Shown in pieces: positions 1 to 34,396 of a stretch of 54,109 nt of DNA (position 1 is its first letter; each line of letters opens with the position of its first letter). A model generated the notes under the pieces. The model was not told the origin of the DNA and searched no databases. It saw only the letters and a program-made list of their open reading frames with translations. The position numbers and the translations under genes were made by a program. The DNA comes from an uncultured Pelagibacteraceae bacterium (GTDB taxonomy: Bacteria > Pseudomonadota > Alphaproteobacteria > Pelagibacterales > Pelagibacteraceae), in assembly GCA_902533775.1 (NCBI GenBank), contig CACANA010000003.1, positions 1 to 54,109 of the forward strand, written 5' to 3'.

Positions 1-407
1 GATTTATTAACGTGATCATTTGGATGAACAGGTTTCTTGGATCCTTTTTTCCCTTTTAAAATTTCTATAGCTCTATTTGCTATTACCTCATTTACATTCA
101 TATTAGTTTGTGTTCCAGACCCAGTCTGCCAAACTTTTAAAGGAAAATTTCCATCCATTTTTCCAGAAATAACTTCATCAGAGGCTTTAATGATTGATTT
201 AGAAATTTTTGGTGAGATTAACCTGTCATTTTGATGGACAATAGCAGCACTTCTCTTAACAATTGCAATTGATCTAATTATTGAAGATGGCACAAATATT
301 TTGCCAATATTAAAAAATTTTTTTGACCTTTGAGTAGATGCACCCCAATATTTATCATTTGGCACTTTAATTCCACCAATGCTATCAAACTCTTTTCTAG
401 TTTTCAT
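1..407 (-). CDS. fumC: Fumarate hydratase class II, N-terminal part (runs off left edge)
   Basis: This is the first 135 residues of class II fumarase, which interconverts fumarate and malate in the TCA cycle. Reading the minus strand from the ATG at 407 gives [12 protein letters not shown]..., the substrate-site motif [13 protein letters not shown] near residues 92-104, and HPNDHVNKS at the window edge. The class II enzyme is normally about 460 residues, so the rest lies outside the window on the left or has been separated. The ORF track missed it because no stop is inside the window. A plus-strand fragment at 5106-6077 carries the C-terminal two thirds of the same family, and only about 15 residues are missing between the two pieces, which strongly suggests that they are halves of one gene (see findings). 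Divergent from the MazG-like gene, 61 nt away. Confidence 0.9.
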
Positions 408-411
408 TTAT

Positions 412-441
412 TTGAATAAATAACTAAATAACTTATATACT
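412..441 (+). promoter_or_regulatory. Candidate sigma70 promoter for the MazG-like gene
   Basis: A TTGAAT (412-417) and TATACT (436-441) pair separated by 18 nt lies in the 61-nt gap between fumC and the MazG-like gene. It is followed by an AGGAG ribosome binding site at 460-464, only 4 nt before the ATG. In DNA this AT-rich, chance matches to the -10 element are common, so this is tentative. Confidence 0.3.
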
Positions 442-468
442 AGTTTTTATTAATCTTACAGGAGTAAA

Positions 469-840
469 ATGACAAATTTTCAAAAAGTAAAAAAATTTAT
501 GGAGACTTTTGGTCAAGAAGTTAAATCAAGGCCATCATTTAGCTCTGAAAAAATCAATGAGCTTAGATATAATTTAATTAAAGAAGAATTAGATGAGTTT
601 AAGCAGGCATTAGATAATAAAGATCTTTTAGAAGCAGCTGATGCTTTAACCGATATATTGTATGTTACATACGGAGCAGGACATGCATTTGGAATTGATT
701 TAGACGCTTGTTTTCAAGAAGTTCAAAATTCGAATATGAGCAAGTTAGGAAATGATGAAAAACCTATTTACAATGATCAGGGCAAAGTTATGAAAGGTCC
801 AAATTATTTTAAACCAGATTTATCTAAATTTATTAAGTAA
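469..840 (+). CDS. MazG-like / PRA-PH-fold nucleotide pyrophosphohydrolase
   Basis: A 123-residue all-alpha protein of the MazG / phosphoribosyl-ATP pyrophosphohydrolase-like superfamily, which hydrolyses nucleoside triphosphates (often non-canonical ones) to monophosphate and pyrophosphate. The metal-binding pattern is visible as EELDEF (about residues 42-47) followed by EAADALTDILYVTYG (about residues 59-73), the usual E-x2-E then E-x2-D arrangement. The C-terminal NSNMSKLG...GKVMKGPNYFKPDL block is typical of small stand-alone members. A good SD (AGGAG) precedes the ATG. The 3' end overlaps the convergent ygfZ by 8 nt. The family is clear; the exact substrate cannot be read from sequence, and a HisE role is unlikely without his genes nearby. 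Confidence 0.8.
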   Translation: MTNFQKVKKFMETFGQEVKSRPSFSSEKINELRYNLIKEELDEFKQALDNKDLLEAADALTDILYVTYGAGHAFGIDLDACFQEVQNSNMSKLGNDEKPIYNDQGKVMKGPNYFKPDLSKFIK

Positions 841-1213
841 TTTGTAGCCAATTGGGTTTCTTGATTTTAACTTTTGCAGAACCACAATTAAAAGTTTTGT
901 TAAAATCAAATTTTTCATTTTTAACTTTGATAATAGCATACGGATAATCATCATTTATTAATATTTTTCCTATTTCGTCTTTCTCTAATGATACAATGTC
1001 ATTCTCTAAATCACCCTCTATAACCTCAATTGGTAGAAGACGTTTGTTCAATTTATCTTTCAACTTAATTCTGGCAGTATTTTCTTGGCCTACGTAACAA
1101 CCTTTTTTAAAATCTATCGCATTTAATTCATCAAAATTACATTCAATACCAAAAAGTTTATTTTGAAGTTTGTCAGTATTATTTTGTGGAATTATTATAA
1201 TTGAATTACTCAT
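833..1213 (-). CDS. ygfZ: YgfZ/GcvT-family folate-binding protein, N-terminally shortened
   Basis: YgfZ (IbaG-independent iron-sulfur cluster assembly factor, GcvT-like fold) is recognised by KGCYVGQENTARI at about residues 38-50, matching the family signature K-G-C-Y-x-G-Q-E with its functional cysteine. YgfZ proteins are normally about 250-330 residues with that motif well past the middle; here the ORF is only 126 residues and the motif is near the start, so the N-terminal folate-binding half is missing. Upstream there are only 97 nt before the divergent cytochrome c gene, so the missing part is not simply out of frame next door. Either a decayed remnant or an unusually reduced form. Tail overlaps the MazG-like gene by 8 nt. 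Confidence 0.7.
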   Translation of the reverse strand: MSNSIIIIPQNNTDKLQNKLFGIECNFDELNAIDFKKGCYVGQENTARIKLKDKLNKRLLPIEVIEGDLENDIVSLEKDEIGKILINDDYPYAIIKVKNEKFDFNKTFNCGSAKVKIKKPNWLQIT

Positions 1214-1227
1214 ATATTCATATTTTA

Positions 1228-1244
1228 TGCGTCTTTGAGACGCA
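1228..1244. repeat. Perfect hairpin palindrome between divergent genes
   Basis: TGCGTCT-TTG-AGACGCA is a perfect 7-bp inverted repeat with a 3-nt loop. It lies in the 96-nt space between the divergent ygfZ remnant and the cytochrome c gene, 15 nt from the ygfZ ATG. Being GC-rich against this AT-rich background makes it stand out. It could be an operator, an RNA hairpin in the ygfZ leader, or the scar of the event that removed the 5' half of ygfZ. No T-tract follows on the ygfZ side, so it is not an obvious terminator. Confidence 0.5.
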
Positions 1245-1309
1245 AATTTATAAATTAAATTTCGTATAAAATTTGTTTAACATGTTATACGTCATAATTA
1301 AAAGAAAAC

Positions 1310-1849
1310 ATGGATTCATTTGAAATAAACAAAATTATTGCAGCTGTTCTTCTTATTGCACTACTTGTAATTGGAATTGGGAAAATTTCAGATATCGCTT
1401 TCCAGGTAGATAAGCCGGAGAAATCAGCTTACAAAGTAGATATTCAAGAAAGCAGTCAAATTTCAAGTTCTACAACAGAAAAAATTGAGGAAAAAGTTGA
1501 TATTTCTGCATTACTTGCATTAGGAGATGTTTCTCATGGAGAAAAAGTTTTTAAAAAATGTTCTGCTTGCCATTTAGTAAATAAAGGCGGGGAAAATAAA
1601 ATCGGACCAGCATTGTATGGTGTAATAGGAAGAAAAGTTGCATCAAAACAAGACTATAAATATTCAAAGGCAATGGCAGCATATGACAAAGATTGGACAT
1701 TTGAAGAGATGAATGGTTATTTAAAAAAACCTCAAAGTTATATTAAGGGAACTAAGATGGCATTTGCTGGATTAAGAAAAGAAAAAGACAGAGCATCTGT
1801 TATTTTGTATCTTAACCAAAATTCAGATAATCCACTACCCCTACCTTAA
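1310..1849 (+). CDS. Membrane-anchored c-type cytochrome (CycM-like)
   Basis: A 179-residue class I cytochrome c. An uncleaved N-terminal membrane anchor (about residues 9-31, IIAAVLLIALLVIGIG) is followed by a low-complexity periplasmic linker and a cytochrome domain with the heme site CSACH (about residues 84-88), IGPALYGVIGRK and the distal methionine in IKGTKMAFAGL. This architecture matches alphaproteobacterial CycM/cytochrome c552, which carries electrons from the bc1 complex to the terminal oxidase. It is transcribed alone, divergent from the ygfZ remnant, and its 3' end overlaps the convergent argF by 9 nt. The family is certain; the exact oxidase partner is inferred. Confidence 0.9.
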   Translation: MDSFEINKIIAAVLLIALLVIGIGKISDIAFQVDKPEKSAYKVDIQESSQISSSTTEKIEEKVDISALLALGDVSHGEKVFKKCSACHLVNKGGENKIGPALYGVIGRKVASKQDYKYSKAMAAYDKDWTFEEMNGYLKKPQSYIKGTKMAFAGLRKEKDRASVILYLNQNSDNPLPLP

Positions 1850-2770
1850 TTTTCCAAAACAATACAATAGAATACTTTTTTGAACATGAACTCTGTTCAA
1901 TGCCTGTTGCCAGACATGGGAATTTTTTCCTAAAAATACATCCTCCTCAACTTCATCTCCTCTTGGCAAACAATGCAAAAAAATACAATTTTTTTTTGTA
2001 TAATTAAATATCTCTTTTTTAATTTTAAATTTTTTAAATTGTTGTTTTTTGTTTTTTTTGTTCACTCTGTCATTAAGAGAAATTACTTTATCAGAAAAAA
2101 TTACATCTGCATCTAAAGCTGCTTTTTTTGGGTCGTGATAGATAAAGATTTTTTTTTTATTTTTGCTTACCCAATCTTTAACTTTCTTACCTGGTGCGAA
2201 TTTTTTTGGACATCCAATACTTAATGTAAAAGAAAACTTAACAGATGCTGCAATTAAACTGTCCAAAACATTATTAGAGTCTCCAATCCAACAGATTTTT
2301 AATTTTGATATTGGTTTTTTTTTAATTTCCTCAACAGTAAAAATATCTGATAACACTTGAGTTGGATGAGATGATGGACTTAAACCATTTATTATTGGGA
2401 TAGTTAGATGCTTTTGAAAATCTTCAATTTTTTTATCATCATCGGTTCTCAAGATGAAACCATCACTATATGTAGATAGAATTTTTGCAGTATCAGCTAT
2501 CGTCTCACCACCTTGTCCAAGATGAAGTTCGTTAGATCTAAGTGTCAAAGTTCCACCTCCAAGCTGTTTAATGGCTATGTAAAAGCTTATTCTTGTTCTT
2601 GAACTAGCTTTTTCAAACATTTGTACTAACATTTTACCTTTAAGAGGTGATCCTTTGTCTTGCTCCAAAGTATTTAATTTTTTTCTTTGTTTTTTTCTTT
2701 GTTTTGCATCAACAATTATTTTTCTAAGATCTGTACTTGGAATATCTTTTAAATTTATAAAGTGTTTCAT
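1841..2770 (-). CDS. argF: Ornithine carbamoyltransferase
   Basis: ArgF makes citrulline from ornithine and carbamoyl phosphate in arginine synthesis. At 309 residues it has the normal length. Visible signatures are the carbamoyl-phosphate loop SSRTRISF (about residues 56-63; the usual S-T-R-T-R has S in place of T), HLGQGGETIADTAKIL, HPTQVLSDIFTV and the ornithine-side HCLPRGDEVEEDVF. It follows argD with a 4-nt ATGA overlap, so the two are translationally coupled. Its other substrate is made by CarAB, encoded later in this window at 40.5-44.9 kb. The long aspartate/lysine-rich stretch around residues 215-250 is typical of AT-driven drift. Confidence 0.95.
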   Translation of the reverse strand: MKHFINLKDIPSTDLRKIIVDAKQRKKQRKKLNTLEQDKGSPLKGKMLVQMFEKASSRTRISFYIAIKQLGGGTLTLRSNELHLGQGGETIADTAKILSTYSDGFILRTDDDKKIEDFQKHLTIPIINGLSPSSHPTQVLSDIFTVEEIKKKPISKLKICWIGDSNNVLDSLIAASVKFSFTLSIGCPKKFAPGKKVKDWVSKNKKKIFIYHDPKKAALDADVIFSDKVISLNDRVNKKNKKQQFKKFKIKKEIFNYTKKNCIFLHCLPRGDEVEEDVFLGKNSHVWQQALNRVHVQKSILLYCFGKLR

Positions 2771-3930
2771 TTTATTTCATTACAAACTTTGCTAATAATT
2801 TTTAAAGCTATATCAATTTCTCTTTTTGTTACATTTAATGGAGGCAAAATTCGTATGACATTTTCAGCTGCTCTAATGGTCAATAATTTATTTTCCATTA
2901 ATTTTTTTATAAACTCAGTTTGATCCTTAAAAAGTTGTAAACCAATTAATAGTCCTACTCCTCTGACCTCTTTAATTACCTGGGGAAATTTAATTTTTAT
3001 TTTATTAAGTTCATGAATAAAATATTTTGACATTTTGTTCACGTTAATTAATAAATTCTTATTTATTTGATCTAAAACAGCGTTACCCACTGCCATTGCA
3101 AGAGGATTTCCACCAAATGTTGAACCATGTGTACCTGGTACCATAGCTTTTGCAACTTTCTTTGTCATTAGGACTGCACCGATGGGAAAGCCGCCTCCAA
3201 TTCCTTTCGCTATGGGGACTATATCAGGTTTAACCTTTGAATGTTCAAAAGCAAAAAATTTACCTGATCTTCCAATACCACACTGAACCTCATCAAGAAT
3301 TAAAAGTATTCTTCTTTGATTGCATATTTTTCTAATTGCTTTTATGCACCAATTTGGAATTACTTTAATTCCTCCCTCACCCATAACTGGTTCAAGCATA
3401 ATAGCCGCTGTATTTTTTTTAATCAATTTTTTTAGTTTTTTGTGATCACCAAATTCAAAATGATCAAAGCCTGGAACTTTTGGCCCAAATCCTTGTGTCA
3501 TTTTTTTTGACCCGCTTGCATGTATTGTTGCAATTGTTCTGCCATGAAAAGAATTCTTTATACAAATAATTCTATTTTTATGCTCCTTGCCTATTGAATA
3601 AAAATATCTCCTAGCAACTTTGATAGCCGCTTCAGTAGCTTCAGCACCACTATTTTGAAAAATTATTGCGTCTGCAAAAGTTTTTTTTACTAATTTTCCA
3701 GCTAATTTTTCGCCCTCTGGTATTCTAAATGCATTTGACACGTGCCAAAGTTTTTTCGATTGTTTATTAATTGCACTTATGAGCTTTTTATTTGCATGTC
3801 CAAGAGAATTTACTGCAATACCCTGAACAAAATCTAAGTATTTTTTACCATCTTTAGTAAAAAGATAACTTCCTTTCCCTCTTACAAATGATAAATTTTT
3901 TCTTTTATAATTGTTTGCGAGCGCGGACAT
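2767..3930 (-). CDS. argD: Acetylornithine aminotransferase
   Basis: ArgD is a PLP-dependent class III aminotransferase converting N-acetylglutamate semialdehyde to N-acetylornithine, and often also serving in lysine/DAP synthesis (DapC activity). The 387-residue ORF shows the phosphate-site QNSGAEATEAAIKVAR (about residue 93), the cofactor aspartate in LDEVQCGIGRSGKFFAFEH, the Schiff-base lysine in IAKGIGGGFPIGAVL and the C-terminal RLLPPLNV-like RILPPLNVTKREID. First gene of the argD-argF pair. The ATG at 3930 fits the family N-terminus. The 163-nt gap to gcrA must hold both divergent promoters. Confidence 0.95.
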   Translation of the reverse strand: MSALANNYKRKNLSFVRGKGSYLFTKDGKKYLDFVQGIAVNSLGHANKKLISAINKQSKKLWHVSNAFRIPEGEKLAGKLVKKTFADAIIFQNSGAEATEAAIKVARRYFYSIGKEHKNRIICIKNSFHGRTIATIHASGSKKMTQGFGPKVPGFDHFEFGDHKKLKKLIKKNTAAIMLEPVMGEGGIKVIPNWCIKAIRKICNQRRILLILDEVQCGIGRSGKFFAFEHSKVKPDIVPIAKGIGGGFPIGAVLMTKKVAKAMVPGTHGSTFGGNPLAMAVGNAVLDQINKNLLINVNKMSKYFIHELNKIKIKFPQVIKEVRGVGLLIGLQLFKDQTEFIKKLMENKLLTIRAAENVIRILPPLNVTKREIDIALKIISKVCNEIK

Positions 3931-4093
3931 ATTTACTTATAATTTTTTTTAGTTTTAATTAAAGTGTAATTTACAACCTCAAGTTATAAATTTATCCTGA
4001 TTGTTGAAAAATAAAAAAAAAAACTTGTATTAGTTTTCTATTATGCCACATGATGTTATTTATTAAATTTTACATACTAAATATGGTAAATTA

Positions 4094-4588
4094 ATGAGTT
4101 GGACAGATGAAAAAGTAAATAAGCTGAAAGACTTATGGGGCAAAGGTCAGACCGCTAGTCAGATTGCTGAGATAATTGGTGGAGTTTCTCGAAACGCTGT
4201 TATTGGCAAAGCACACCGACTTAACTTGTCATCAAAAATAAAAACCAGAGCTAATCTAAAACCAAATAGGAACAATTTAAAAAATGAACAAACCCCAAAA
4301 AATTTTAAAGGCATAAGAGGTAAGTTTAGATCTCTCATATTAGATAAAAATTTTGAGCCGGCAAAAAATTTAAACTTGGAAGAATTAAATGAAGAGACTT
4401 GTAAATACATGGAGGGAAATCCTGATGAAAAAAATTCAAGTTTCTGTGGGAGGAAAACTGTTGAGAAGTTTTCTTACTGCCCTTTACATTTAATGGTAGT
4501 TTTTCAACCTAAAGGTAAGAAAGAAGAATCATTAGAAAAAGATGAAGAAATGCCAAAGTTTATAGAAAAAAAAATAAAATCAGCTTAA
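4094..4588 (+). CDS. gcrA: GcrA cell-cycle regulator
   Basis: GcrA is an alphaproteobacterial transcription factor that binds sigma70-RNA polymerase and GANTC sites methylated by CcrM. The 164-residue ORF begins MSWTDEKVNKLKDLWGKGQTASQIAEIIG followed by VSRNAVIGKAHRLNL, the diagnostic N-terminal helix-turn-helix region. The C-terminal sigma-interacting part has a conserved Cys/His set (ETCKYM, SFCGRK, YCPLHL). Members are usually 165-175 residues, so it is complete. It overlaps the convergent SHOCT gene by 4 nt. Its presence is strong taxonomic evidence for Alphaproteobacteria. Confidence 0.93.
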   Translation: MSWTDEKVNKLKDLWGKGQTASQIAEIIGGVSRNAVIGKAHRLNLSSKIKTRANLKPNRNNLKNEQTPKNFKGIRGKFRSLILDKNFEPAKNLNLEELNEETCKYMEGNPDEKNSSFCGRKTVEKFSYCPLHLMVVFQPKGKKEESLEKDEEMPKFIEKKIKSA

Positions 4589-4869
4589 CTAATTATTTTT
4601 CTTTTAGCTTTTTCATATTCTTCCTCAGATAAAACCCCATCATTTTTTAGTTTATTTAACTTAATAATTTCATCAGATATATTTGCATTCTTATTATCTG
4701 AATTTACTTTTTGTTCTTTATCAAAAATATTTTCATCTATTTTTGTTTCGGAAGTATTTTCGTTTAAGTTTCTTCTTGCCTCTATTCCCATGCTTATTGG
4801 TTTAGCAGATATATATATGACGGCTAATAACAAAAAAATACAAACACCTATGACTAAATAATATAACAT
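4585..4869 (-). CDS. Small membrane protein with C-terminal SHOCT-like motif
   Basis: A 94-residue protein with one N-terminal membrane segment (about residues 2-22, LYYLVIGVCIFLLLAVIYIS), a hydrophilic acidic linker and a C-terminal segment KLNKLKNDGVLSEEEYEKAKRKIIS matching the short SHOCT pattern (L-x-x-G-x-[IL]-[ST]-x-x-E-[FY]-x-x-x-K). SHOCT domains are thought to mediate oligomerisation; no function can be assigned. It lies 22 nt downstream of the NDUFA9-like remnant on the same strand and overlaps gcrA by 4 nt. Confidence 0.7.
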   Translation of the reverse strand: MLYYLVIGVCIFLLLAVIYISAKPISMGIEARRNLNENTSETKIDENIFDKEQKVNSDNKNANISDEIIKLNKLKNDGVLSEEEYEKAKRKIIS

Positions 4870-4890
4870 TAAGATTACTATAATTTATTT

Positions 4891-5130
4891 TTATGCAAAT
4901 TGTCCACCACTTCTCCAATTGTAACTATATTTTTCAATTTCTTCACTAAATTTTCTATTCGCATCAAGTCCTAAATCAAAATTAGTCTTGTGAATACCAG
5001 ATTTGACATTATCATATCTTAATAAATTTAATTGGTCTTCTGTCAATAATGGATTAGGAAACAATTGCAAAAATTTTGCAGACATTTTGGCTAGAGGTAA
5101 AGGTAATGGCAATAATATTCTCTTTTTTTT
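4891..5130 (-). pseudogene. C-terminal remnant of NDUFA9-like NAD(P)-dependent epimerase family protein
   Basis: The minus-strand ORF from about 5130 to 4891 reads [38 protein letters not shown], the C-terminal hallmark of bacterial homologues of complex I subunit NDUFA9 (atypical SDR family, usually about 310-330 residues). Only about 80 residues are present: the NAD-binding Rossmann domain with G-x-x-G-x-x-G is missing. The ORF-track extension to 5172 (TTG start, [13 protein letters not shown]) is antisense to recognisable fumC codons and is not homologous. The break sits in or beside a T-tract at 5123-5131. The missing N-terminal part is predicted just left of the window on the plus strand if the segment is inverted. 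Confidence 0.7.
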
Positions 5131-6077
5131 TATTGTATGAAGCAACTGAGACACTAAGAAAACTTTTGCCAAGTTTAAAGCTACTTGAAGTTACATTGGG
5201 AAAAAAAAGTACTGAATTTAAAAAAATTGTTAAAATAGGTAGAACTCATCTCCAAGATGCTACACCCTTATCACTTGGGCAAGAATTTTCAGGATACCAT
5301 GAACAAGTAAAAAAAAGTATAGATAGAATCAAATATTGTTTAAATGATATTTTCTATTTAGCTCAGGGTGGGACTGCTGTCGGAACTGGAATAAATTCCA
5401 AAAAAAATTTTGATAAAAAAATTGTTAAAGAAATAAAAAATTTTTGTAAAATAAATTTTAAACCAGCACCTAATAAATTTTCTGAGCTAGCTGCGCATGA
5501 TGCAATAGTTAATTTTTCGGGGTCATTAAATTCTTGTGCAGTCGTATTAATGAAAATTTCAAATGATATTAGATTTTTAGGATCAGGTCCAAGGGCTGGC
5601 TATGGAGAACTTATTTTGCCAGAGAATGAACCTGGTTCATCTATAATGCCAGGTAAAGTCAACCCAACTCAATGTGAAGCGGTTACTATGGTTTGTGCAA
5701 AAGTAATTGGAAACCATACTGGAATTACAATTGCAGGTAGCCATGGGCATTTTGAATTAAATGTTTTTAAACCGTTAATAGCTTATAATATTTTACAATC
5801 GATTGATCTTTTGTCAGATAGTGTAAAAAATTTTAGTTTGTTTTGTGTAAAAGGAATTAAAGCAGATAAAAAAAAAATTAAAGAACACTTAGATAATTCC
5901 TTAATGCTTGTAACTGCATTAGCACCCAAGATAGGTTATGACAATGCAGCAAAAATTGCAAAAAAAGCTCTGAAAAATGGCACAAGGTTAAAAGAAGAAG
6001 CTCTCAAATCAGGTATGATCAATGACAAAGAATATGATTTACTAATTGATCCTAAAAAAATGATTAGTCCAAATTAA
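5106..6077 (+). CDS. fumC: Fumarate hydratase class II, C-terminal two thirds (5'-truncated)
   Basis: From about 5142 the translation is class II fumarase: [16 protein letters not shown], the catalytic-histidine region [27 protein letters not shown], the mobile-loop signature [15 protein letters not shown] and [14 protein letters not shown]. It ends normally. The first ~12-20 residues of the ORF ([12 protein letters not shown]) are not fumarase and are antisense to the NDUFA9-like remnant. The region carrying [13 protein letters not shown] and SSND, needed for activity because the active site is built from three subunits, is absent here and the first part of it is found at 1-407 on the other strand. 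As it stands this fragment should not be an active fumarase. Overlaps the convergent AsmA-like gene by 4 nt. Confidence 0.85.
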
Positions 6078-7435
6078 TTAATAGCTTGTCTAACATAGGA
6101 TCTTAAATTTTGGATATTTTTTATTAAAAAAAGTTCATTTGAATTTCTATCATTATTATCAATTTTTACATTAGTGATAACAAAATCTCTTTCTCCAATA
6201 TTTTTTTCTAAATCAAATTGTATTTCTTTTACATTTTTTATTTTTTTTGATCCAATTTGAAAAACTTTTGCAAATTCAATATGGTTGGAAATTGTTAATT
6301 TATTACTTGAAAAAAATTTAATAACACCCTCTGTTTCTTTTAGTTTAATAAAAGATTCTACATCACCAATGCCATCTAGTGTAAAAATTATATTATCTAA
6401 AACTAGCTTATTTTCATTAACTAAAAAATCAATTTCTCCTTTTTTTATTAATTTATTCTTCAAATCTTTAAATTTTATTTTTAAAACACCATTAAAATTA
6501 CCAAGGTATTCTTCGTTATAATTCAAAGCATTAATCAATAGATTATCAATAATATTTTCAATTTTTTTATTTTTAATTATTAATTGTCCATCAAAATAGA
6601 AAGGGTTAAGCTGTATAGTGCTTTTTAAGCCAAAATTAATACTTTCATCATTTGGAGAAGTTATCTTAATTTTATCATTCTCAAATTCAAAATTATATTT
6701 CAGCTTATCTTGAAGAAATAATACTTCTATCTGACTGATAAAATTATTTATACTTATGTATTCAAATTTATTTTTTATTTCAATATTTGGATTATATATA
6801 TTTATTTGATGTAAACTATTTTTAGGCTTATCATAACTCCTTTTCCATTTAGAATTAAAATTTAATCCAAATACTTCCCCATCGATTTCAAAATTTTTAA
6901 TCCTTTTTTTGTTGTTTATTTTATATGAAATATTTTTTATAGGGGATATTAAAATTACTTCTTTTTTTTTATTTCTTAAAAAAATTTTACAATTATTAAA
7001 TAAAATTGGTTTGTTAATTTTTTGATATAAGTGTTTTCTTAATTCTTTAAAGTCTGAAGTTTTTACTGATATATTTGTATCTGAGATCTCAGTGTAAAGT
7101 AAGTTATTAAAAGATCTTAAGTATATATCTCTCAAGGATATAAAGATTTTAAGATTTGAAGTGCTTATCAGATCATCTTTTTTTTGTGATTTAATTAAAT
7201 TAAGTGTGGCATTTTCTACTATTAAGTGTGGCTTTGGAAATGGCTTGTATGAAATGTTGCCAGATGAATTCATGTAAATTTTAAAACTTTCGTAAAATTT
7301 TTTTTCAATTAGTAGAACTTTGCTTTTATAATTGAATAAAACTGGTAAAGATAAAATAGTTAAAGATGAAAAAATTATAGCAATTGCAGTTAAAATTAAT
7401 GTGAAAGTAATTTTATTTTGTCTAATTTTATTCAT
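6074..7435 (-). CDS. AsmA-like protein (putative envelope lipid-transport family)
   Basis: A 453-residue protein with one N-terminal membrane segment (about residues 12-33) followed by a long beta-rich periplasmic region. The piece [22 protein letters not shown] near residues 60-80 resembles the start of AsmA-type proteins (fine-structured P-x-P-x-L-x-x-x-x-x-L repeats in which beta strands build a lipid-conducting groove). AsmA/TamB/YhdP family members help phospholipid transport to the outer membrane. Divergence is high and full-length AsmA is larger (about 600 residues), so the assignment is moderate. Divergent from uvrD with a 31-nt gap; tail overlaps the fumC fragment by 4 nt. Confidence 0.55.
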
Positions 7436-7466
7436 TTAAATAGTAAGACGTATAAATTAAAAAAAT

Positions 7467-9487
7467 ATGTTTAATTCTGATTATTTGTTAAATTTAAACG
7501 AAAAGCAACAAGAAGCGGTATTACATTTAGACGGGCCACTTTTAATCGTTGCTGGAGCGGGATCTGGGAAAACAAAAGTTCTTACTTCAAGAATTGCACA
7601 TATAATAAGAAGTCATAAGGCTTTTTCTAGTCAAATACTTGCTGTTACTTTTACAAATAAAGCTGCAAAAGAAATGCAATTAAGAGTATCTAAGCTTCTT
7701 CGAAAGGAAGCTACTGGTTTACCGTGGTTAGGTACCTTTCATTCTATAAGTGCAAAAATTTTAAGAAAGCATGCACAGGCGGCAGGATTAAAATCTAATT
7801 TCACTATTATAGATCAAGACGACCAAATAAGATTGATAAAAAATATTTGTAAAGCTGAAAATGTAGACATAAAAAAAATATCGCCCAAATATATTCTTGC
7901 TGTAATAGATAAATGGAAAAATAAAGGATTTTATCCTGAAGATGTTATTTTAAAAAAAAAAGAAACATTAGAAAAAAACTTTTTGAATATTTATAAGATT
8001 TATCAACAAAAACTGATTGATTTAAATTCTACCGATTTCAGTGATTTAATTTTGCACACTGTGAAAATTTTTAAGAATTACAGCGATATATCCTCTATGT
8101 ATTCAAAAAAGTTTAAATATATTTTAGTTGATGAATATCAAGATACAAACTTCATTCAAAGTGAGTGGCTAAAATACTTAGCTACTATTAATAATAATTT
8201 ATGTTGTGTTGGAGATGACGATCAATCAATTTATAGTTGGAGAGGTGCTGAAATTAAAAATTTTTTAGAATTTGATAAAAAATACAAAGATACAAAAATA
8301 ATCAGACTAGAAAAAAACTATAGATCAACTCAAAATATTTTAAATGTTGCATCAAAATTAATAGAGAATAATCAAAATAGAGTTGGAAAGACTTTGTATA
8401 CTAATCAAGAAGAGGGTGAACTTATCACATTAGATTGTTTCAGAAATGTAAAAGATGAAGCTATTGATATTAGTACTACGATTGAAAATTACAAAAAAAG
8501 AAACTCATTAAATGAAATAGCTATACTAGTAAGAGCAATATTTCAAACGAGAGAATTTGAAGAAAGATTTTTAAGAGTAGGTATACCATATAGGATAATT
8601 GGCGGAATCAAATTCTATGAAAGAGCAGAGATAAAAGACTGTGTTGCTTACCTGAGATGTATAAATCAATCTATGGACGATTTATCTTTTGAAAGAATAA
8701 TAAATGTTCCAAAAAGATCAATAGGAGATACAACTATCAAGACTATTTCTGAGTTTGCAAAAACAAATAATTGCTCATTAGAAATTGCATCGAAAAAAAT
8801 GATAGAACTTAATAAAATAAAACCAAAAACTAAAATTGGACTAAGTTCATTACTAAATTTGCTCGAAAAATGGAGATATGAATTAAAAAAAAAAATTAAT
8901 CATAATAAGCTTTTAGAGACTGTTTTAGATGAATCTGGATACAGCGAGATGTTAAAAAATAAAAAAGATTTAGAAAATGAAAATAGACTAGAAAATATTA
9001 AAGAACTTTTAAATGCTATGAAAGAATTTGATAATTTAGAAAGTTTTCTAGAACATGTTGCATTGGCAACTTCTTTAGATCAAGATTGGGAAAGTGAAAA
9101 AGTAAATTTGATGACTCTTCACGCATCAAAAGGGTTAGAATTTAACATAGTTTATTTACCCGGTTGGGAAGAAGGTTTATTTCCTCACCAAAAAAGTATT
9201 GAGGAAAAAGGTGAAAGTGGTCTTGAAGAGGAAAGAAGACTTGCCTATGTAGGAATTACAAGAGCAAAAAAAATTGCAAAAATTTCTTTCTCTATGAATA
9301 GATTTTACCAAGGTGACTGGATGGATAGTATAGCCTCAAGATTTGTAGATGAATTACCAGACGAATTTATTAAAAAAAATAATAATTTTAGCCAAAATGA
9401 AGATGATGGCTTTGAATTTAATCAAGATATTGATTTTGAAAATGAAATTAAAAGTCCTGGTTGGTTGAGATATCAGAAGAAATTGAA

Positions 9488-9491
<4 letters not shown>
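7467..9491 (+). CDS. uvrD: UvrD/PcrA-type superfamily 1 DNA helicase
   Basis: A 674-residue 3'-5' helicase acting in nucleotide excision repair, mismatch repair and replication restart. Motifs in order: Q-motif LNEKQQEAV (about residues 9-17), Walker A VAGAGSGKT (about 28-36), TFTNKAAKEM, motif II VDEYQDTN, motif III GDDDQSIYSWRGA, RLEKNYRST, motif V MTLHASKGLEFNIVYLPG and motif VI EERRLAYVGITRAK. Slightly shorter than E. coli UvrD (720), with a short acidic C-terminal tail. The stop overlaps the pepP ATG (ATGA), so the two are coupled. With uvrB and uvrC elsewhere in the window, three nucleotide-excision repair functions are encoded here. Confidence 0.93.
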
Positions 9492-13177
<3,686 letters not shown>

Positions 13178-14014
13178 TTATTTAAACATTTTTTTGAATC
13201 TACTTAAGATATTTTTTTCGTCTGATGGAGTTTTAATTTTCTTATCTTCTTTTTGTTTATTTAATATATTAAAACTTGCCTCGTACCATTGGCTTGATTG
13301 ATAATTATAACCTAATAAATATGCATACTTTTGAGCTTCTTCAATTAAGCCTATTTTGTAGTGCAATTCCACCAGTCTATGCAAAGCCTCTTCAACATAT
13401 ATCGTCGTATCGTATTTATTGATTACTTCTTTAAATCTATTAATTGCAGGTATCCATTTTTCTCTTTCTACATAGTACCTAGCTAAATAAATCTCTTTAG
13501 ATGCTAGAATTTCAGTAATATATTCTAATTTAAACTTTGAATCTAAAGCATACTCGGTATTTGGATATTTATTAATTATTAAATCAAAGTATTCTTTGGA
13601 TTTTAATATTTGATTTAGATCTTTTTTTTCATCAATAATCTGATCATAGTGACACAGCGCTAATAAATAATAAGCATAATCTGATTGTGGGTGATTTTTG
13701 TATTTGACTAAAAAACGCTCCAAGTCATTTATCGCATCACTATAATATCCTTGAGAGAAATAACCGTAAGCTGACATTAAAACAGCTCTAGGAGCCCAAA
13801 TAGATTGTGGAAATAACAATTCTGCTTCACTAAACTTTTTACCTGCGTAAATAACATCTCCTTTTTCGAATTCTTTAATACCTTCATTGTAAATCTCAAT
13901 CATTTGATTTTCTAAATTTTTTTCTTTTACTGTTACAACCTCATTATCCTTTTTGGAGCATCCAAAAATAATTAGAAATACAAACAAATATAAAAAATAG
14001 GATTTATTATTCAT
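13178..14014 (-). CDS. bamD: Outer membrane assembly lipoprotein BamD
   Basis: BamD (ComL) is the essential lipoprotein partner of BamA in inserting beta-barrel proteins into the outer membrane. The N-terminus MNNKSYFLYLFVFLIIFGCSKKDNE is a lipoprotein signal with lipobox IFGC, lipidated at about Cys19. The rest is tetratricopeptide-like helices: GIKEFEKGDVIYAGKKFSEAE, WAPRAVLMSAYGYFSQGYYSDAINDLERFL, DYAYYLLALCHYDQI, as in the family. Length (278) is normal for alphaproteobacteria. It follows lpxC by 38 nt and precedes ligA by 12 nt. Confidence 0.92.
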   Translation of the reverse strand: MNNKSYFLYLFVFLIIFGCSKKDNEVVTVKEKNLENQMIEIYNEGIKEFEKGDVIYAGKKFSEAELLFPQSIWAPRAVLMSAYGYFSQGYYSDAINDLERFLVKYKNHPQSDYAYYLLALCHYDQIIDEKKDLNQILKSKEYFDLIINKYPNTEYALDSKFKLEYITEILASKEIYLARYYVEREKWIPAINRFKEVINKYDTTIYVEEALHRLVELHYKIGLIEEAQKYAYLLGYNYQSSQWYEASFNILNKQKEDKKIKTPSDEKNILSRFKKMFK

Positions 14015-14052
14015 TTAATTCTTTTAACAGAATAAAATAAAAATTCTAACTT

Positions 14053-14988
14053 TTATGCAGTTGATTTTAGATTACTATAATTTGCAAATACGTGGGGTAA
14101 TTGTTTTCCTTTAATTTCAATTAAGGAATAATTTAAATGATTGCTGAAAACCTTTCTCAATAATTCATTAGTTAATTTATGGCCGCCTTGAGAACATTTT
14201 AATGATCCAATAATTTTATAACCAGAGAGAAAAAGGTCTCCCATACAATCTAATATTTTATGATTAACAAATTCATTTTTATTTCTTAATCCACCTATAT
14301 TTAAAATTTTATTTTCTTTTATTACAACCGCATTTTCTAAACTTCCACCTAGCCCTAAATTCATATTTTTTAATTTTTCTATATCTTCGTATAAACAAAA
14401 TGTCCTTGAATTATATATTTCAGTGAGTTTATCTTCAAATACATTAATTTTATTTTTTTTATTTCCTATAATTTTATTATTATATTTTATTTCAAATTCT
14501 ATATCCCCAGTTACATTGGATTTTCCTATAGAAATAAATTTATCACCATCATTCAACTCTATAGTTCTGTTAATCTTAATTATTTTTATTGGCTGATCAC
14601 TCAAATTTAGTCCTGCATTATTAATACTTTCAATAAAGCATTTAGCTGATCCATCCATAATTGGAACTTCTTGTGAATCAATTTCAACTAAAGCATTATC
14701 TATACCAATGCCATAAAATGCTCCCATTAGATGTTCAATTGTAGAAACTTTTACTCCACTCTCATTAGAAATAGTTGTGCATAGTGTTGTATCTGAAACA
14801 TTATTATATAATGGAAAAATTAAATTATCTTTTTCAATATCAACTCGTTTAAACACAATACCAGTATTTGGTGCTGCTGGTAGCACACTCAAATTAACTT
14901 TTTTTCCTGTGTGAATACCAATTCCAGTAAAGCTAATTTTTTTTGATATTGTTTTTTGAGTAAGTATTGACACGAAGAATTTATACAA
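14053..14988 (-). CDS. lpxC: UDP-3-O-acyl-N-acetylglucosamine deacetylase LpxC
   Basis: LpxC catalyses the committed zinc-dependent step of lipid A synthesis. Zinc ligands and catalytic residues are visible: STIEHLMGAFYG (His), VNHKILDCMGDLFLSGY (His and Asp) and SQGGHKLTNELL (catalytic His). GIHTGKKVNLSVLPA and VPIMDGSAKCFIE are typical. The ORF-track start is TTG; a GTG at 14973 giving MSILTQKTISKK is an equally good start, and no ATG is available before the conserved SFTGIGIHTG. It follows ftsA directly (47 nt), whereas the usual neighbour is ftsZ, which here has moved. Shows the cell makes lipid A. Confidence 0.95.
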   Translation of the reverse strand: MYKFFVSILTQKTISKKISFTGIGIHTGKKVNLSVLPAAPNTGIVFKRVDIEKDNLIFPLYNNVSDTTLCTTISNESGVKVSTIEHLMGAFYGIGIDNALVEIDSQEVPIMDGSAKCFIESINNAGLNLSDQPIKIIKINRTIELNDGDKFISIGKSNVTGDIEFEIKYNNKIIGNKKNKINVFEDKLTEIYNSRTFCLYEDIEKLKNMNLGLGGSLENAVVIKENKILNIGGLRNKNEFVNHKILDCMGDLFLSGYKIIGSLKCSQGGHKLTNELLRKVFSNHLNYSLIEIKGKQLPHVFANYSNLKSTA

Positions 14989-15035
14989 AATGATGTGCTA
15001 ATTAAATACTCAAGAAATATTACAAGAAAATACGA

Positions 15036-16202
15036 TCATTTATCAAAAAAATTAAAAAATTTTTCAAAAATCCCTTGCTTTTTAATGATTATTTTTGATG
15101 ATTGAGAGTTCATTAAGTGATTTTCAAGACCACATTTGCAAATTTGGGCATCTGTATCTGGATAGAAATTAATAGATTTGAGACCAAATCTATCATTCAA
15201 ATAAAAAGAATTGTTATTGAATAGTTTTGAACCTTCACCAATTAAAAATAATTCTGTGTCCTCTAATATAATTTTACGGTTGTTAATTTTTGACTTTTTA
15301 AATGTCAGATCCAAAATTTCTTGAACTCTGTACAAGATCACTTTTTTTAATAAATCTACTGAAATATTCTTTTTTATAATTTCCTTAAATATAACTGTTT
15401 CTTCAGATTCTTTGTCTTTGTATGAAAATTCCGTGTCAGTTTTATTAAATAATTTTTTTAATTTTTCAGCATCTACTTCTGAGATTTTGAAAATTTTTGA
15501 GATATCTTTTGTAATATGCAGTCCCCCAATTGGAATCGACTCAATAAATTTTAACTTTTTATTTTCAAAAAACATAATTGAGGATCTTCTTAATCCAATA
15601 TCTAAAAAAGAATTTTTATTTTTACTTAATTTTTTCACATATGATTGAGATTTTATATATGAAGAACAAAAAATATTTATTATATTTAAATTATTTTGAA
15701 TAAATTTATCTTTTATATTCTTAATAAATATTTTAGGAAAACATATTAATTTAAAATCAACTTTTAAATTATTAGCCAATGTTTTATCATTTGGAAATTC
15801 TTCAAAAATTTTTTCGTTATCTACTATACATTTATCCATAATTATTTGGGATAAATAATATTCATTATAGTGCGAAGTAAATATTTGCTTTAATTCTAAT
15901 TTTAAGAGTTCGAATAACTTATTTATATTTGAGATTATATCTAAATTTTTTGTTAGAGATATATCAATTGTAAATAATTCTACAGAGTCTAAAATCAAAA
16001 TAATATCCTCAATATGATAAGAAAACTTTTTTTCTGCTTTTTTTATTATTTTATTTATTGCTTCAAAGTGATATTGCAAATCATTTTCTATTAACACTTT
16101 AATCGAGTCAGAGAATTTTTCATTTAGATTTTTATCAAAAGCAGCAAATCGAATTTTAGATGAACCGAAATCAATAATATTGAATAAATTTTTATTACTC
16201 AT
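15036..16202 (-). CDS. ftsA: Cell division protein FtsA (divergent)
   Basis: FtsA is the actin-like protein that tethers FtsZ to the membrane. The 388-residue ORF starts with the phosphate-1 motif NIIDFGSSKIRFAAF, has a second nucleotide motif FLDIGLRRSSIMFFENKKL and the conserved ESIPIGGLHITKDISKIFKISEVDAEKLK. The C-terminal GIFEKFFNFFDK is an amphipathic helix suited for membrane targeting. Sequence is strongly diverged (many Lys/Asn/Ile), and FtsA identification rests on these motifs plus position after ftsQ (8-nt overlap). Its classical downstream partner ftsZ is not here but between mraZ and rsmH. Confidence 0.9.
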   Translation of the reverse strand: MSNKNLFNIIDFGSSKIRFAAFDKNLNEKFSDSIKVLIENDLQYHFEAINKIIKKAEKKFSYHIEDIILILDSVELFTIDISLTKNLDIISNINKLFELLKLELKQIFTSHYNEYYLSQIIMDKCIVDNEKIFEEFPNDKTLANNLKVDFKLICFPKIFIKNIKDKFIQNNLNIINIFCSSYIKSQSYVKKLSKNKNSFLDIGLRRSSIMFFENKKLKFIESIPIGGLHITKDISKIFKISEVDAEKLKKLFNKTDTEFSYKDKESEETVIFKEIIKKNISVDLLKKVILYRVQEILDLTFKKSKINNRKIILEDTELFLIGEGSKLFNNNSFYLNDRFGLKSINFYPDTDAQICKCGLENHLMNSQSSKIIIKKQGIFEKFFNFFDK

Positions 16203-16884
16203 CTCTCAAAATTAATCTATTTTGAATTCTTAAATCGATAATTGTATTTGAGCCTATTTTACCATTCATTTTAAATTCTTTAAATAAATTTATTGCTTTT
16301 GAAATATTTTTGTTTGGTAATTGAATCACAATGTTATCTGCAAAATATAAATCCCATCTTTTATTTTTATGATAGTAATATTTTATTATTTCATTAAGAT
16401 TAATTTTTTGATTTAAAAGTTCTTCTTGCAAAAAAATATAATCAACTGGATCAAATTTTCCAAATATAGTTGGTAATTTTTTTCTGTTTGAAATTTGATT
16501 TGCCAATATAAAATTTCCATTTTGGCCAACAAAATATTTTTTTTGGTTTATATAAGTAATTGCTACTAAGTTGGTTGTTTTAGTTTTAATATTAATAATT
16601 GAAGGATATTTTTTTTTTATATTTATGCTTTCAATAAAATTGAGATTTTCTAATTTTTCTAAAAGAAATTTTTTATTTACAAAAAAGATATTTTTACCTA
16701 TTAAAAAACTTGTTTTTGATAAGATTATTTCATCAATTTCTTTTTTAGTATTTTCAATATTAATTTCACTAATTTTAAAACTACTTTTTAAATTTTTTAA
16801 TAAATTATTATTAAAAATTGTAGATATAAATAAAAATGAAACCAAATAAAAATATATTTTTTTTTTATTTATTAATTGAAGCAT
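16195..16884 (-). CDS. ftsQ: Cell division protein FtsQ
   Basis: FtsQ links the cytoplasmic and periplasmic halves of the divisome. The 229-residue ORF has a short cytoplasmic N-terminus, one membrane segment (about residues 10-27, FYLVSFLFISTIFNNNLL) and a POTRA-like domain (FKISEINIENTKKEIDEIILSKT, then FLEKLENLNFIESINIKKKYP) followed by the beta domain ending IIDLRIQNRLILRDE. That POTRA pattern plus location between ddl and ftsA identifies it despite low overall conservation. It overlaps ddl by 20 nt and ftsA by 8 nt, so it is translationally coupled to both. Confidence 0.88.
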   Translation of the reverse strand: MLQLINKKKIYFYLVSFLFISTIFNNNLLKNLKSSFKISEINIENTKKEIDEIILSKTSFLIGKNIFFVNKKFLLEKLENLNFIESINIKKKYPSIINIKTKTTNLVAITYINQKKYFVGQNGNFILANQISNRKKLPTIFGKFDPVDYIFLQEELLNQKINLNEIIKYYYHKNKRWDLYFADNIVIQLPNKNISKAINLFKEFKMNGKIGSNTIIDLRIQNRLILRDE

Positions 16885-17785
16885 CTTCCAAAATTTTTTT
16901 TATCAAATTTTTGAAAGTAATGTTATTAAATTTTGCTATTTCAGGTACTAATGAGAGTGAAGTCATTCCTGGTTGTGTATTAGTTTCTAGTAAATAAAAA
17001 GAATTTTTATAATATCTGAAATCTGAACGTGTAACTCCTCTACAATTTAGAATTTTATGGGCTTTTAAAGCAATTTTTGTCACTTCATGAAATTTTTTTT
17101 TTGACAATTCCACTGGTATTATATGCTCTGTTTTTGCTTTAGGATTATATTTTGCTTCATAATCATAAAATTTTCTAGTTGGTTTAAGCTCAATTGCTCC
17201 AAGCACATTATTCTCCAAAATAGCAACTTGTATTTCTCTTCCAGGTATATATTTTTCTAATAAAACTTCTCCATATTCTTTTAGTTTTTTCAGAGTTTTA
17301 AAAATATTATCTTTATTACATATAAAAACATTTACACTAGAACCTTCATTCAGGGGTTTCACTACTAAAGGAAAGCCAATTTTTTTTTGCAAACTGTTTA
17401 TTAATTTTAATTTGTTTAAACTCTCTCTGTAAGAGAATTTCAAATACTTGGGTGTCAATATTTTATTTTTCATGAAAATTTTTTTTGACAGCTCTTTATC
17501 TATTGCTAATGACGAGGATAAAACTCCTGAATGAGTATATTTTACTTTTTCTGACTCTAAAATTGCTTGAATATAACCATCTTCCCCATATCTTCCGTGC
17601 AATAAATTTAATACTGTATTTGGCTTAAACTTTCTTAATACTTCAACGAATTTTCCGTCAGGATTTACAACTTTAATATTATAACTTTTATCATTATTTA
17701 ATTCAGAAAAAACACTTTTTGCAGTTTGCATACTAATTTCTTTTTCTTTTGAATAACCACCAGCCAAAATTAGGATTTTTTTCAT
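16865..17785 (-). CDS. ddl: D-alanine--D-alanine ligase
   Basis: Ddl joins two D-alanines with ATP to make the dipeptide later added by MurF. The 306-residue ATP-grasp enzyme shows ILAGGYSKEKEISMQTAKSV at the start (N-lobe), LLHGRYGEDGYIQA, VVKPLNEGSSVNVF (glycine-rich loop), EKYIPGREIQVAIL, GVTRSDFRYY and the metal-site LLETNTQPGMTSLSLVPE. Length is normal. The start codon abuts the murB stop (1-nt sharing at 17785), and the 3' end overlaps ftsQ by 20 nt. Confidence 0.95.
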   Translation of the reverse strand: MKKILILAGGYSKEKEISMQTAKSVFSELNNDKSYNIKVVNPDGKFVEVLRKFKPNTVLNLLHGRYGEDGYIQAILESEKVKYTHSGVLSSSLAIDKELSKKIFMKNKILTPKYLKFSYRESLNKLKLINSLQKKIGFPLVVKPLNEGSSVNVFICNKDNIFKTLKKLKEYGEVLLEKYIPGREIQVAILENNVLGAIELKPTRKFYDYEAKYNPKAKTEHIIPVELSKKKFHEVTKIALKAHKILNCRGVTRSDFRYYKNSFYLLETNTQPGMTSLSLVPEIAKFNNITFKNLIKKILEDASINK

Positions 17786-18693
17786 TATTCTATGATTTTA
17801 ATTTCTAAATTAATATTAATCCCTGTTTTATCTTTAACATTCCTTTTTACATAGTTTATTAGTGAATTCATGTCATCAAATGATGCATTATTTTTGTTTA
17901 CAAAAAAATTTGAATGTTTTTCTGATATACATGCGTCTCCAAAACTAATATTTTCTGGAACTGACTCTTTTATAAGTTCCCATGCTTTTTTTGTAGTTTG
18001 ATCGATTGGATTTTTAAAAGTACTTCCTCCTGTTTTAATTTTTGAAGGCTGGGTATTATTTTTTTTTATTGCCAATTCTTCCATCAGACTTTGTATTTTA
18101 TTTTTATTTGATGAATTGCCCTTAAACGTAGCACTTAAAAAAATTAAATTTTCATTTAAATCTATCTTTCTGTATTTAAAGTTAATTTTATTATTTGGTA
18201 TAACTTTAATATTACCTTCTGTATCAATACATTGAAGTGAAATTAGTTTATCTTTAAATTCTGTTCCAAAACAACCAGAGTTCATTTTAAGACCACCCCC
18301 AACTGAACCAGGAATGCAATACATAAATTCAAAACCACTTATTGCATTTTCTAGTGCATATTCTGAAAGTTTTTTTTGTGAGCAAGATGAGCCAGCTATA
18401 ATTGTTTCTGTATTTAATTTTGATAGTGAACCAAAATTATTACCTAGTTTTATAATTACACCGTCATAAGTATTATCTTTAAATAAAACATTTGAACCCA
18501 TGCCTAATGTAAATATTTTTCCCCTATTATTATATAGTTTCAGAAAATCCTTTAGTTCTATAAGATTTTTTGGTTTAAAAAAAATTTTTGTTTTACCTCC
18601 TATGTTAAACCAATTAAACTTTTTAATATCGAGATTAAAAAAAAGATCTGAATTAAATTTATTCTTAAAGTTTTCAATATCTTTTAATTCCAT
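17785..18693 (-). CDS. murB: UDP-N-acetylenolpyruvoylglucosamine reductase
   Basis: MurB is the FAD enzyme that reduces UDP-GlcNAc-enolpyruvate to UDP-MurNAc. The 302-residue ORF has NTGG-like FNIGGKTKIFFKP, the FAD-binding LGMGSNVLFKD, GFEFMYCIPGSVGGGLKMNSGCFG and the C-terminal KTGGSTFKNP with catalytic Ser/Glu (ISEKHSNFFVN), typical of type II (no extra C-terminal loop) MurB. It lies between murC (1-nt gap) and ddl. MurA, the preceding enzyme, is not in the window. Confidence 0.95.
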   Translation of the reverse strand: MELKDIENFKNKFNSDLFFNLDIKKFNWFNIGGKTKIFFKPKNLIELKDFLKLYNNRGKIFTLGMGSNVLFKDNTYDGVIIKLGNNFGSLSKLNTETIIAGSSCSQKKLSEYALENAISGFEFMYCIPGSVGGGLKMNSGCFGTEFKDKLISLQCIDTEGNIKVIPNNKINFKYRKIDLNENLIFLSATFKGNSSNKNKIQSLMEELAIKKNNTQPSKIKTGGSTFKNPIDQTTKKAWELIKESVPENISFGDACISEKHSNFFVNKNNASFDDMNSLINYVKRNVKDKTGININLEIKIIE

Positions 18694-18694
18694 G

Positions 18695-20077
18695 TTAATT
18701 AAGATTTCTTACCCAATTAGTTATAGATCCAGCACCCATGGAGATAAAAATTTTATTTCCAAATGCTATATTTCTGACAATTTTTTTTAAATCCGCTTCA
18801 TTTTTAAGCATTATCAAATTCACTTTAGAATTCTTTGCAATTAATTTTGCAAATGAGGTGTATGAGAAACCCAATTTTATAGTCTCACTAGCTTTATAGA
18901 TAGGACAAAGTAAAACTGTATTTGCATTTTTAAAGCAATTAGAAAACTCAATTTTTAAATTTTTTACTCTTGAAATTCTATGTGGTTGAAAAATACATAC
19001 TATTTTCTCTTTATCATATACCTTGCTTACACCATCTAATACAGATGAAATTTCCGTTGGATGATGAGCGTAATCGTCAAAAAATGGGACTTTATTTATT
19101 TCAAATAAGTAATTAAATCTTCTTTGAACACCTTTAAAATTTTTTAGAGCTAATTTGATTATTTTATCGGATACACCTATCGAAAATGCTACTGCCAATG
19201 CAGATGCTGCATTTTTTATATTATGCAAACCTAATAAAGGTATTGAAATATTTTTTATAATTTTTGTTTTGCTTGGTATTTTAATCCTAATACTAAATTT
19301 CGAATATTTTCTACTCTGGATTATATTAAAAATATGAAAATTTGATTTCTTATTTAAGCCAAATGTGTAGTAGTTATTATTTTTAATTTTTGGTAAGATG
19401 TTTTTTACATTTTTGTCGTCTAAACACAAAAAAGCCTTTCCAAAAGAAGGAGTTTTATGAATAAATTCTATGAATTTATTTTTTAGATTTTTCATAGTTT
19501 TGTAATAATCCAAATGCTCATTATCAATGTTAGTTATTATTGAATAATTAAAAGGTATTTGAAGAAAACTGCCATCCGACTCATCTGACTCAACCAAACT
19601 CCAGTCGCTTTTTCCTAATTTTGCCGAACTTCCTATTGAATTCAAAATACCACCATTAATTATTGTGGGATCTAATTTAGCGTAATTCATAATGTTTGAC
19701 AAAATTGATGTTGTTGTTGTTTTGCCGTGTGATCCTGTCACAACAATATTTTTCATTAAAGAAACTATATGGCCTAACAATTCTCCTCTTTTATATATCG
19801 GTAAGTTTAATTTTTTAGCATGCCTATATTCTGGATTTGATTTTTTTATGGCTGATGAAACTACTAATACAGTACAATTTTTTATATTTTGCTTATTATG
19901 ATTTAAATAAATTGGAATTTTTCTTTTTCTTAGTAAATTAAGATTTTTATTATCTGACTTGTCACTTCCTTGAATTTTAAAACCTAAACTATTCATTATT
20001 AATGCTAAACCACTCATACCAATACCACCAATTCCAACAAAATGAATTAGTTCAGTTTTTCCAATATTAATTTTCAT
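18695..20077 (-). CDS. murC: UDP-N-acetylmuramate--L-alanine ligase
   Basis: MurC adds L-alanine to UDP-MurNAc in the cytoplasm. Of 460 residues, the N-terminal UDP-binding motif HFVGIGGIGMSGLALIM, the ATP loop VVTGSHGKTTTTSILS (about residues 111-126), SLVESDESDGSF, ITNIDNEHLDYY and C-terminal FDDYAHHPTEI are all diagnostic. Its start overlaps the murG end by 11 nt. Part of the uninterrupted Mur run in this cluster. Confidence 0.96.
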   Translation of the reverse strand: MKINIGKTELIHFVGIGGIGMSGLALIMNSLGFKIQGSDKSDNKNLNLLRKRKIPIYLNHNKQNIKNCTVLVVSSAIKKSNPEYRHAKKLNLPIYKRGELLGHIVSLMKNIVVTGSHGKTTTTSILSNIMNYAKLDPTIINGGILNSIGSSAKLGKSDWSLVESDESDGSFLQIPFNYSIITNIDNEHLDYYKTMKNLKNKFIEFIHKTPSFGKAFLCLDDKNVKNILPKIKNNNYYTFGLNKKSNFHIFNIIQSRKYSKFSIRIKIPSKTKIIKNISIPLLGLHNIKNAASALAVAFSIGVSDKIIKLALKNFKGVQRRFNYLFEINKVPFFDDYAHHPTEISSVLDGVSKVYDKEKIVCIFQPHRISRVKNLKIEFSNCFKNANTVLLCPIYKASETIKLGFSYTSFAKLIAKNSKVNLIMLKNEADLKKIVRNIAFGNKIFISMGAGSITNWVRNLN

Positions 20078-21143
20078 CTATAATTTCTATAATCTTATTG
20101 TTTATATTATCCCAAGTATTTTTTTTAGTAATTTCCTCAAGATTTTTAAATTTTTCGTTGTAATTTTTATAATCGTTAAATATTTCAAGTATCATTTTTG
20201 AAAATTTTTTAAATTCAAATTCTTTTTGTTTTATTAGCCAACAACAATTTTTTTTATAGTAAAATTCTGAATTATAGAATTGGTGATTATCTCTTGCAGA
20301 TGGGAGAGGTATTGAAATAAACGGTATGTTTAAGAATGAAAGTTCACTTAATGTGCTTGCGCCTCCTCTGGTAATTGCTAGATCTATACCATTGTAGAGT
20401 TCATGACTATAATTGGTAAATTCAATAAATTTGTAGTTTATATTTGATTTGTCATATTTATTTTTTATTGAAGATAAATTATTAATATTTGATATTTGTT
20501 GTATAACTTCGAAATTTCGATTTTTTGAAATTTCGATAATTAATTCAGTAATATTTTCGTCAAAAAACGATGCACCCTGACTGCCACCGATAATAAGAAT
20601 TTTTTTTATTTCCTTTTTAAAATTAATTATATTTTTTTCTAAGTTATATATTTCTTTTTTTAAAATAGGTTTGACTATAATTTTTTTAGAATTGTATTTT
20701 ATTGGGAAGTTTCTTAAATTTTCATCGTAACAAATTATTTTTGTTGAAAATTTCAAAGCAAAACGGTTAGATCTACCTAAAACACTATTAGGCTCAAACA
20801 AGAAAACTTTTTTTTGTAATATAAATGCAGCTAAGCAAAATGGAAATGTCATGTACCCACCAGTACTAATCACAATATTTGTATTATTATTTTTTAAAAA
20901 TCTAATAGATTGAAAAATGTTTAGAAAATATTTAATAATTTTTATTGGAAGTAAATAAGGTTTTAAAAATAAATTTGGTACATCTATTAATTCATATTTA
21001 AATTTTTCAGTATTTATATATTTACTTCCTCTCAAATCAGATACTATTTTTACAGAAAATTTGTTTTTCAAATGTTCAAACAAAGAGGTAGATGGTACTA
21101 CATGACCACCAGAACCACCTGTTACTATAAGTATATTTTTCAT
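20067..21143 (-). CDS. murG: Lipid II synthase MurG (GlcNAc transferase)
   Basis: MurG transfers GlcNAc to lipid I on the inner leaflet to give lipid II. The 358-residue GT-B protein has the N-terminal glycine loop VTGGSGGHVVPS, STGGYMTFPFCLAAF, the second loop ILIIGGSQGASFFDE and the UDP-GlcNAc site ITRGGASTLSELSFLNIPFISIPLPSARDNHQ. Length matches the family. Follows ftsW with a 1-nt gap; overlaps murC by 11 nt. Confidence 0.95.
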   Translation of the reverse strand: MKNILIVTGGSGGHVVPSTSLFEHLKNKFSVKIVSDLRGSKYINTEKFKYELIDVPNLFLKPYLLPIKIIKYFLNIFQSIRFLKNNNTNIVISTGGYMTFPFCLAAFILQKKVFLFEPNSVLGRSNRFALKFSTKIICYDENLRNFPIKYNSKKIIVKPILKKEIYNLEKNIINFKKEIKKILIIGGSQGASFFDENITELIIEISKNRNFEVIQQISNINNLSSIKNKYDKSNINYKFIEFTNYSHELYNGIDLAITRGGASTLSELSFLNIPFISIPLPSARDNHQFYNSEFYYKKNCCWLIKQKEFEFKKFSKMILEIFNDYKNYNEKFKNLEEITKKNTWDNINNKIIEIIDEN

Positions 21144-21144
21144 A

Positions 21145-27453: not shown

Positions 27454-27464
27454 TATAAAATTTC

Positions 27465-30346: not shown

Positions 30347-30364
30347 TTATTTTTTTGAAGACCA

Positions 30365-31813: not shown

Positions 31814-31824
31814 TTTCTCCCCTT

Positions 31825-32280: not shown

Positions 32281-32300
32281 AAACCATATTATCCCTAGTT

Positions 32301-32325
32301 TGGGTATTTATGGGATATTATGGGT
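32301..32325 (-). promoter_or_regulatory. Three MraZ boxes upstream of mraZ
   Basis: On the plus strand TGGGT-ATTTA-TGGGA-TATTA-TGGGT gives three TGGGN pentamers at 32301, 32311 and 32321 with exact 5-nt spacers, that is, a 10-bp helical period. This matches the MraZ operator described in E. coli (TGGGN repeats with 5-nt spacers). They overlap the -10 element of the candidate mraZ promoter, so bound MraZ would block initiation: direct autorepression of the whole division cluster. Confidence 0.85.
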
Positions 32326-34385: not shown

Positions 34386-34396
34386 CTAATCTATAA

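Follow-up and report, generated by a model that had tools for sequence, protein, structure and literature searches.

Three blocks falsely joined over the first 5.1 kb of a SAR11 contig, very probably during DNA amplification

In multiple displacement amplification (MDA), a 3' end that has been displaced can prime anew on a different strand, usually where 2-21 bases match (Lasken and Stockwell 2007, PMC1855051). The majority of the MDA chimeras that have been published connect segments that lie less than 10 kb apart and are inverted; joins between segments more than 10 kb apart form a rarer class, with microhomology in only about one third (PMC1855051). The stretch of DNA analysed here, referred to as the window, is an entire contig (C3) of 54,109 nt, from a genome of 965 kb in 53 contigs that is 74% complete and whose nearest named relatives are Pelagibacteraceae/SAR11. 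The start of this contig consists of three blocks, unconnected or wrongly turned, which are falsely joined over the first 5.1 kb, and this arrangement was very probably made in amplification. The case illustrates in detail how an artefact would become false biology once annotated automatically, the false readings at risk being a missing fumarase, a fused ORF, an argF-argD-gcrA neighbourhood and a rearrangement. Database species representatives carrying such joins mislead studies of gene order and gene loss.

The split fumC gene and the two joins

The fumarase gene fumC is present in two pieces on opposite strands (Table 1), as a preliminary description had already recognised. The piece on the minus strand ends ...HPNDHVNK, and the piece on the plus strand, which occupies 5142 to 6077, starts ATETLRKLL.... 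Pfam finds Lyase_1 in the 5' piece and both Lyase_1 and FumaraseC_C in the 3' piece. From related loci the intervening fumC sequence is SQSTNDVFPTAMH plus ~3 residues, and 46 nt belong between window positions 1 and 5142, which bears out the earlier estimate that ~15 residues (~45 nt) were absent. It had also been proposed that a second fumarase might exist. None was found: the two pieces are the sole strong fumC matches in the whole genome, and the class I fumarase family PF05681 had no match in this 74% complete assembly, while control genomes did match. fumC is present in all 16 near-complete genomes searched, and a normal fumarase gene is almost certainly present in the cell.

The preliminary description placed a single junction in a 9-T tract at 5123-5131. 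That tract is inside the NDUFA9-like gene, and the join itself is at 5142-5145, where 4 nt (GCAA) are shared and the NDUFA9-like gene is connected to codon 152 of fumC. Among the matches listed from 150 other genomes of the genus none spans this join, its two sides matching separately. Another join, which was missed earlier, falls at 1188-1193. It lies within ORF 833-1213, a fusion in which the first nine codons of kdsB run in frame into ygfZ; no Pfam family matched this ORF. The microhomology here is 6 nt (GGAATT), or 7 nt (TGGAATT) with the relative's locus L060. Both overlaps fall within the range of short complementarity described for MDA chimeras. Together the two joins disrupt four genes, namely fumC, ygfZ, kdsB and the NDUFA9-like gene. 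No inverted repeats pairing the two breakpoints were found, such as would flank an invertible switch, the inverted pairs listed being low-identity AT-rich matches of which none is convincing; the outermost left breakpoint lies off the contig.

One 5.1-kb inversion had been suggested as the explanation for two broken genes, but there are two joins and four disrupted genes to be accounted for. Flipping the DNA from -45 to 5130 mends fumC, as had been foreseen, but the kdsB/ygfZ fusion at 1188-1193 stays, as does the position of argF-argD-gcrA beside fumC, and no one flip restores collinearity at both breakpoints.

Table 1. Blocks, joins and genes at the start of the contig
Feature	Position	Strand	Remark
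Block A, native fumC 5' neighbourhood	1..1193	-	Opposite in orientation to block C
Contig end, 46 nt short of native fumC re-entry into block C	1..1	.	
fumC, residues 1-135	3-407	-	Block A
MazG/PRA-PH-like gene	469-840	+	Block A; Pfam PRA-PH
ygfZ/CAF17-like gene, 3' part	833 to ~1193	-	Block A
Join 1 (A/B), GGAATT	1188..1193	.	Common to both parent sequences
Block B, displaced native block, 3.96 kb	1188..5145	+	Collinear block elsewhere in relatives
kdsB, first 9 codons			Left end of block B, at join 1
Cytochrome c	1310-1849	+	Block B
argF	1841-2770	-	Block B
argD	2767-3930	-	Block B
gcrA	4094-4588	+	Block B
SHOCT protein	4585-4869	-	Block B
NDUFA9-like gene, 3' part	4891 to ~5145	-	Block B
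Join 2 (B/C), GCAA	5142..5145	.	Common to both parent sequences
Block C, fumC residues 152-462 then normal downstream sequence	5142..54109	+	Collinear with relatives

Gene order in relatives and in the genome's own contigs

Comparison with related genomes proved informative about the native order. In 13 of the 13 relatives detailed, blocks A and C lie side by side on the same strand, with nothing between them but the 46 nt inside fumC. Block A is collinear with contig C2 of the relative G013 (L032 10312-11504) and with G018 and G010, directly adjoining block C there, and in ten other relatives it is collinear over at least the fumC-MazG part and again adjoins block C. Block B is collinear as one block with a different contig of G013 (C6; L064 7815-11772, 84%) and, for the greater part of its length, with eleven other relatives (12 in total), in each case away from fumC. 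It lies beside A or C in no relative examined, and the A/B and B/C joins are absent from them. In a complete relative, G012, the argF of block B and fumC are separated by 474 kb along the shorter arc, and in G008 and G009, which carry both loci on one contig, the argF block and fumC are 84-87 kb apart. The rest of the window is collinear with relatives, small insertions and deletions apart.

Several features of the locus vary within the genus. The spacing of ygfZ, MazG and fumC differs, since in several relatives (L037, L039 and L044) the 3' part of ygfZ matches ~2 kb farther from fumC. The distance between the argF block and fumC also differs strongly (G008:C4 and G009:C3 versus G012:C1), which suggests either large-scale rearrangements or chimeras in the G008, G009 or G012 assemblies. 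In the closest relative (G013:C6, L064 8473-9399) argF is interrupted by a frameshift, with three TGA and three TAA in the matched frame, which could reflect either an error in sequencing or a broken gene. A stretch of ~4.5 kb in G013 (L172 671-5229) is absent here at window positions 36173-36224, where the flanks are collinear.

The genome's own remaining contigs suggest the same native order, as the ends of C36, C22 and C11 match the order in relatives. The 5' part of ygfZ that block A is missing is at the very start of C36 (6,215 nt, the whole contig), which continues the native neighbourhood of block A, with dihydroorotase, across a gap of 290 nt. The native neighbours of block B are divided between two contigs, recR and the genes upstream of it beginning C22 and the lptC/aroA-side genes ending C11, with gaps to block B of ~3.5 kb and ~2.7 kb, respectively, by the map of the closest relative. 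Block B occurs once in the assembly, only here in C3, and kdsB proper was not found in the assembly. The NDUFA9-like fragment is indeed broken at the junction, as the preliminary description stated, and the 5' part of that gene, which the description expected off the left edge, is likewise absent from the assembly. On the actual chromosome, very probably, ygfZ, the MazG-like gene, intact fumC and block C lie in one place, and kdsB, cytochrome c, argF, argD, gcrA and the NDUFA9-like gene in another.

There are also signs that this may be a single-cell genome. Its nearest named relatives are mostly single-cell genomes of the Bigelow AG series, and in the Bigelow pipeline assembly is by SPAdes in single-cell mode, after which each contig end loses 100 bp and contigs of >2 kb are kept (PMC5519541; PMC9007364). 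The three last-numbered contigs, which are also the smallest, measure 2,071, 2,146 and 2,450 nt, and the gap that separates C3 from C20, its native neighbour, is exactly 200 nt; both are as expected from the 100-bp trimming and the 2-kb cut-off. Gaps of 145 nt between neighbouring contigs (2x100 minus one 55-mer) had been expected, and C3-C20, the only pair tested, has 200 nt, which corresponds to trimming with no overlap of k-mers. Had the left end of C3 likewise lost 100 nt, the raw contig would have crossed the 46-nt gap and continued for 54-55 nt into block C. This is the length of one SPAdes k=55 word, which would be left by a graph fork between native and chimeric entry to block C. In view of the 200 nt at C3-C20, the left contig end is no more than suggestive of such a fork, in which case intact fumC would be present in the reads.

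Origin of the joins

We consider, with a probability of roughly 0.93, that the left 5.1 kb is a chimera which arose when the DNA of one SAR11 cell underwent multiple displacement amplification (MDA/WGA-X). First, a 3' end displaced at the fumC locus would have paired by a few bases with an unrelated argF-argD-gcrA amplicon and primed there, and 3.96 kb of that locus would have been copied. A second jump, back to the ygfZ-fumC locus but in the opposite orientation, would then have produced a C-B-A(inverted) molecule, and the chimeric reads could have let the assembler lay A-B-C. What the sequences show are the three blocks, the two joins with their microhomologies and the native order; the single-cell source of the DNA, the amplification origin of the joins and the order of the jumps are what we infer. 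In a genome of this size, two independent random joins 1.24 kb or less from each other would be unlikely, so that one double-jump molecule would be the simpler assumption. Two points count against the amplification chimera: each join probably links loci more than 10 kb apart and so belongs to the rarer MDA class, and it has to be assumed that two jumps were linked and led back to the same 1.2-kb locus. The split fumC, the fused ygfZ/kdsB ORF and the truncated NDUFA9-like ORF are best read as not being features of the organism. Of the possibilities raised in the preliminary description, that of an assembly-made or mis-joined contig has gained support, from the three-block structure and from the native order in relatives and in the genome's own contigs.

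It is highly improbable that the rearrangement is real, the argF-argD-gcrA block having moved into the fumC locus, with the 5' side of fumC inverted, by microhomology-mediated repair. Joins at short microhomologies do occur in living cells too, and the single occurrence of block B, at C3, would agree with such a move. The event would, however, inactivate four genes (fumC, ygfZ, kdsB and the NDUFA9-like one), and this in a streamlined genome in which, at 74% completeness, no other fumarase was found; join 2 is absent among the matches listed from the 150 other genomes; and a contig that stops 46 nt before block C would fit native fumC in the reads. The corollary of a real microhomology-mediated rearrangement, a SAR11 cell with four broken genes and without the normal fumarase of the TCA cycle, seems to us highly improbable.

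A pure assembler misjoin, without chimeric molecules, is very improbable. The assembly is fragmented into 53 contigs and the joins lie in AT-rich sequence, but the shared 4-7 nt are below any SPAdes k-mer, and an assembler working with 21- to 55-mers would not be misled by so few bases, which means that there must presumably have been chimeric molecules; moreover, the two joins enclose a single block and lead back to a single locus. A true inversion of 5.1 kb, either fixed or phase-variable and broken within fumC and the NDUFA9-like gene, would place the halves of an almost complete fumC on opposite strands, but it is scarcely credible, being already contradicted by the unrepaired join at 1188-1193, leaving the place of the argF block beside fumC unexplained, and having neither inverted repeats to pair the breakpoints nor any relative examined with block B beside A or C.

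Comparison with known systems

Invertible DNA switches flanked by inverted repeats resemble this locus in having the halves of a gene on opposite strands. They differ in that the breakpoints here are without inverted repeats and the two joins are non-reciprocal, and the 5.1-kb stretch encodes no recombinase. Templated insertions of the FoSTeS/MMBIR type, which occur in living cells, are alike in the insertion of a distant block, the inversion and the microhomology at both joins, but here they would require a cell with four broken genes, and join 2 is not found in the related genomes searched, among the matches listed. The usual form of MDA chimera is a single nearby inversion with deletion (PMC1855051), whereas here there would be a double jump involving a 3.96-kb block from a distant locus. 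MDA chimeras have in common with this locus misordered or inverted segments and short complementarity at the joins; such chimeras were found in DNA amplified from one cell (PMC1855051).
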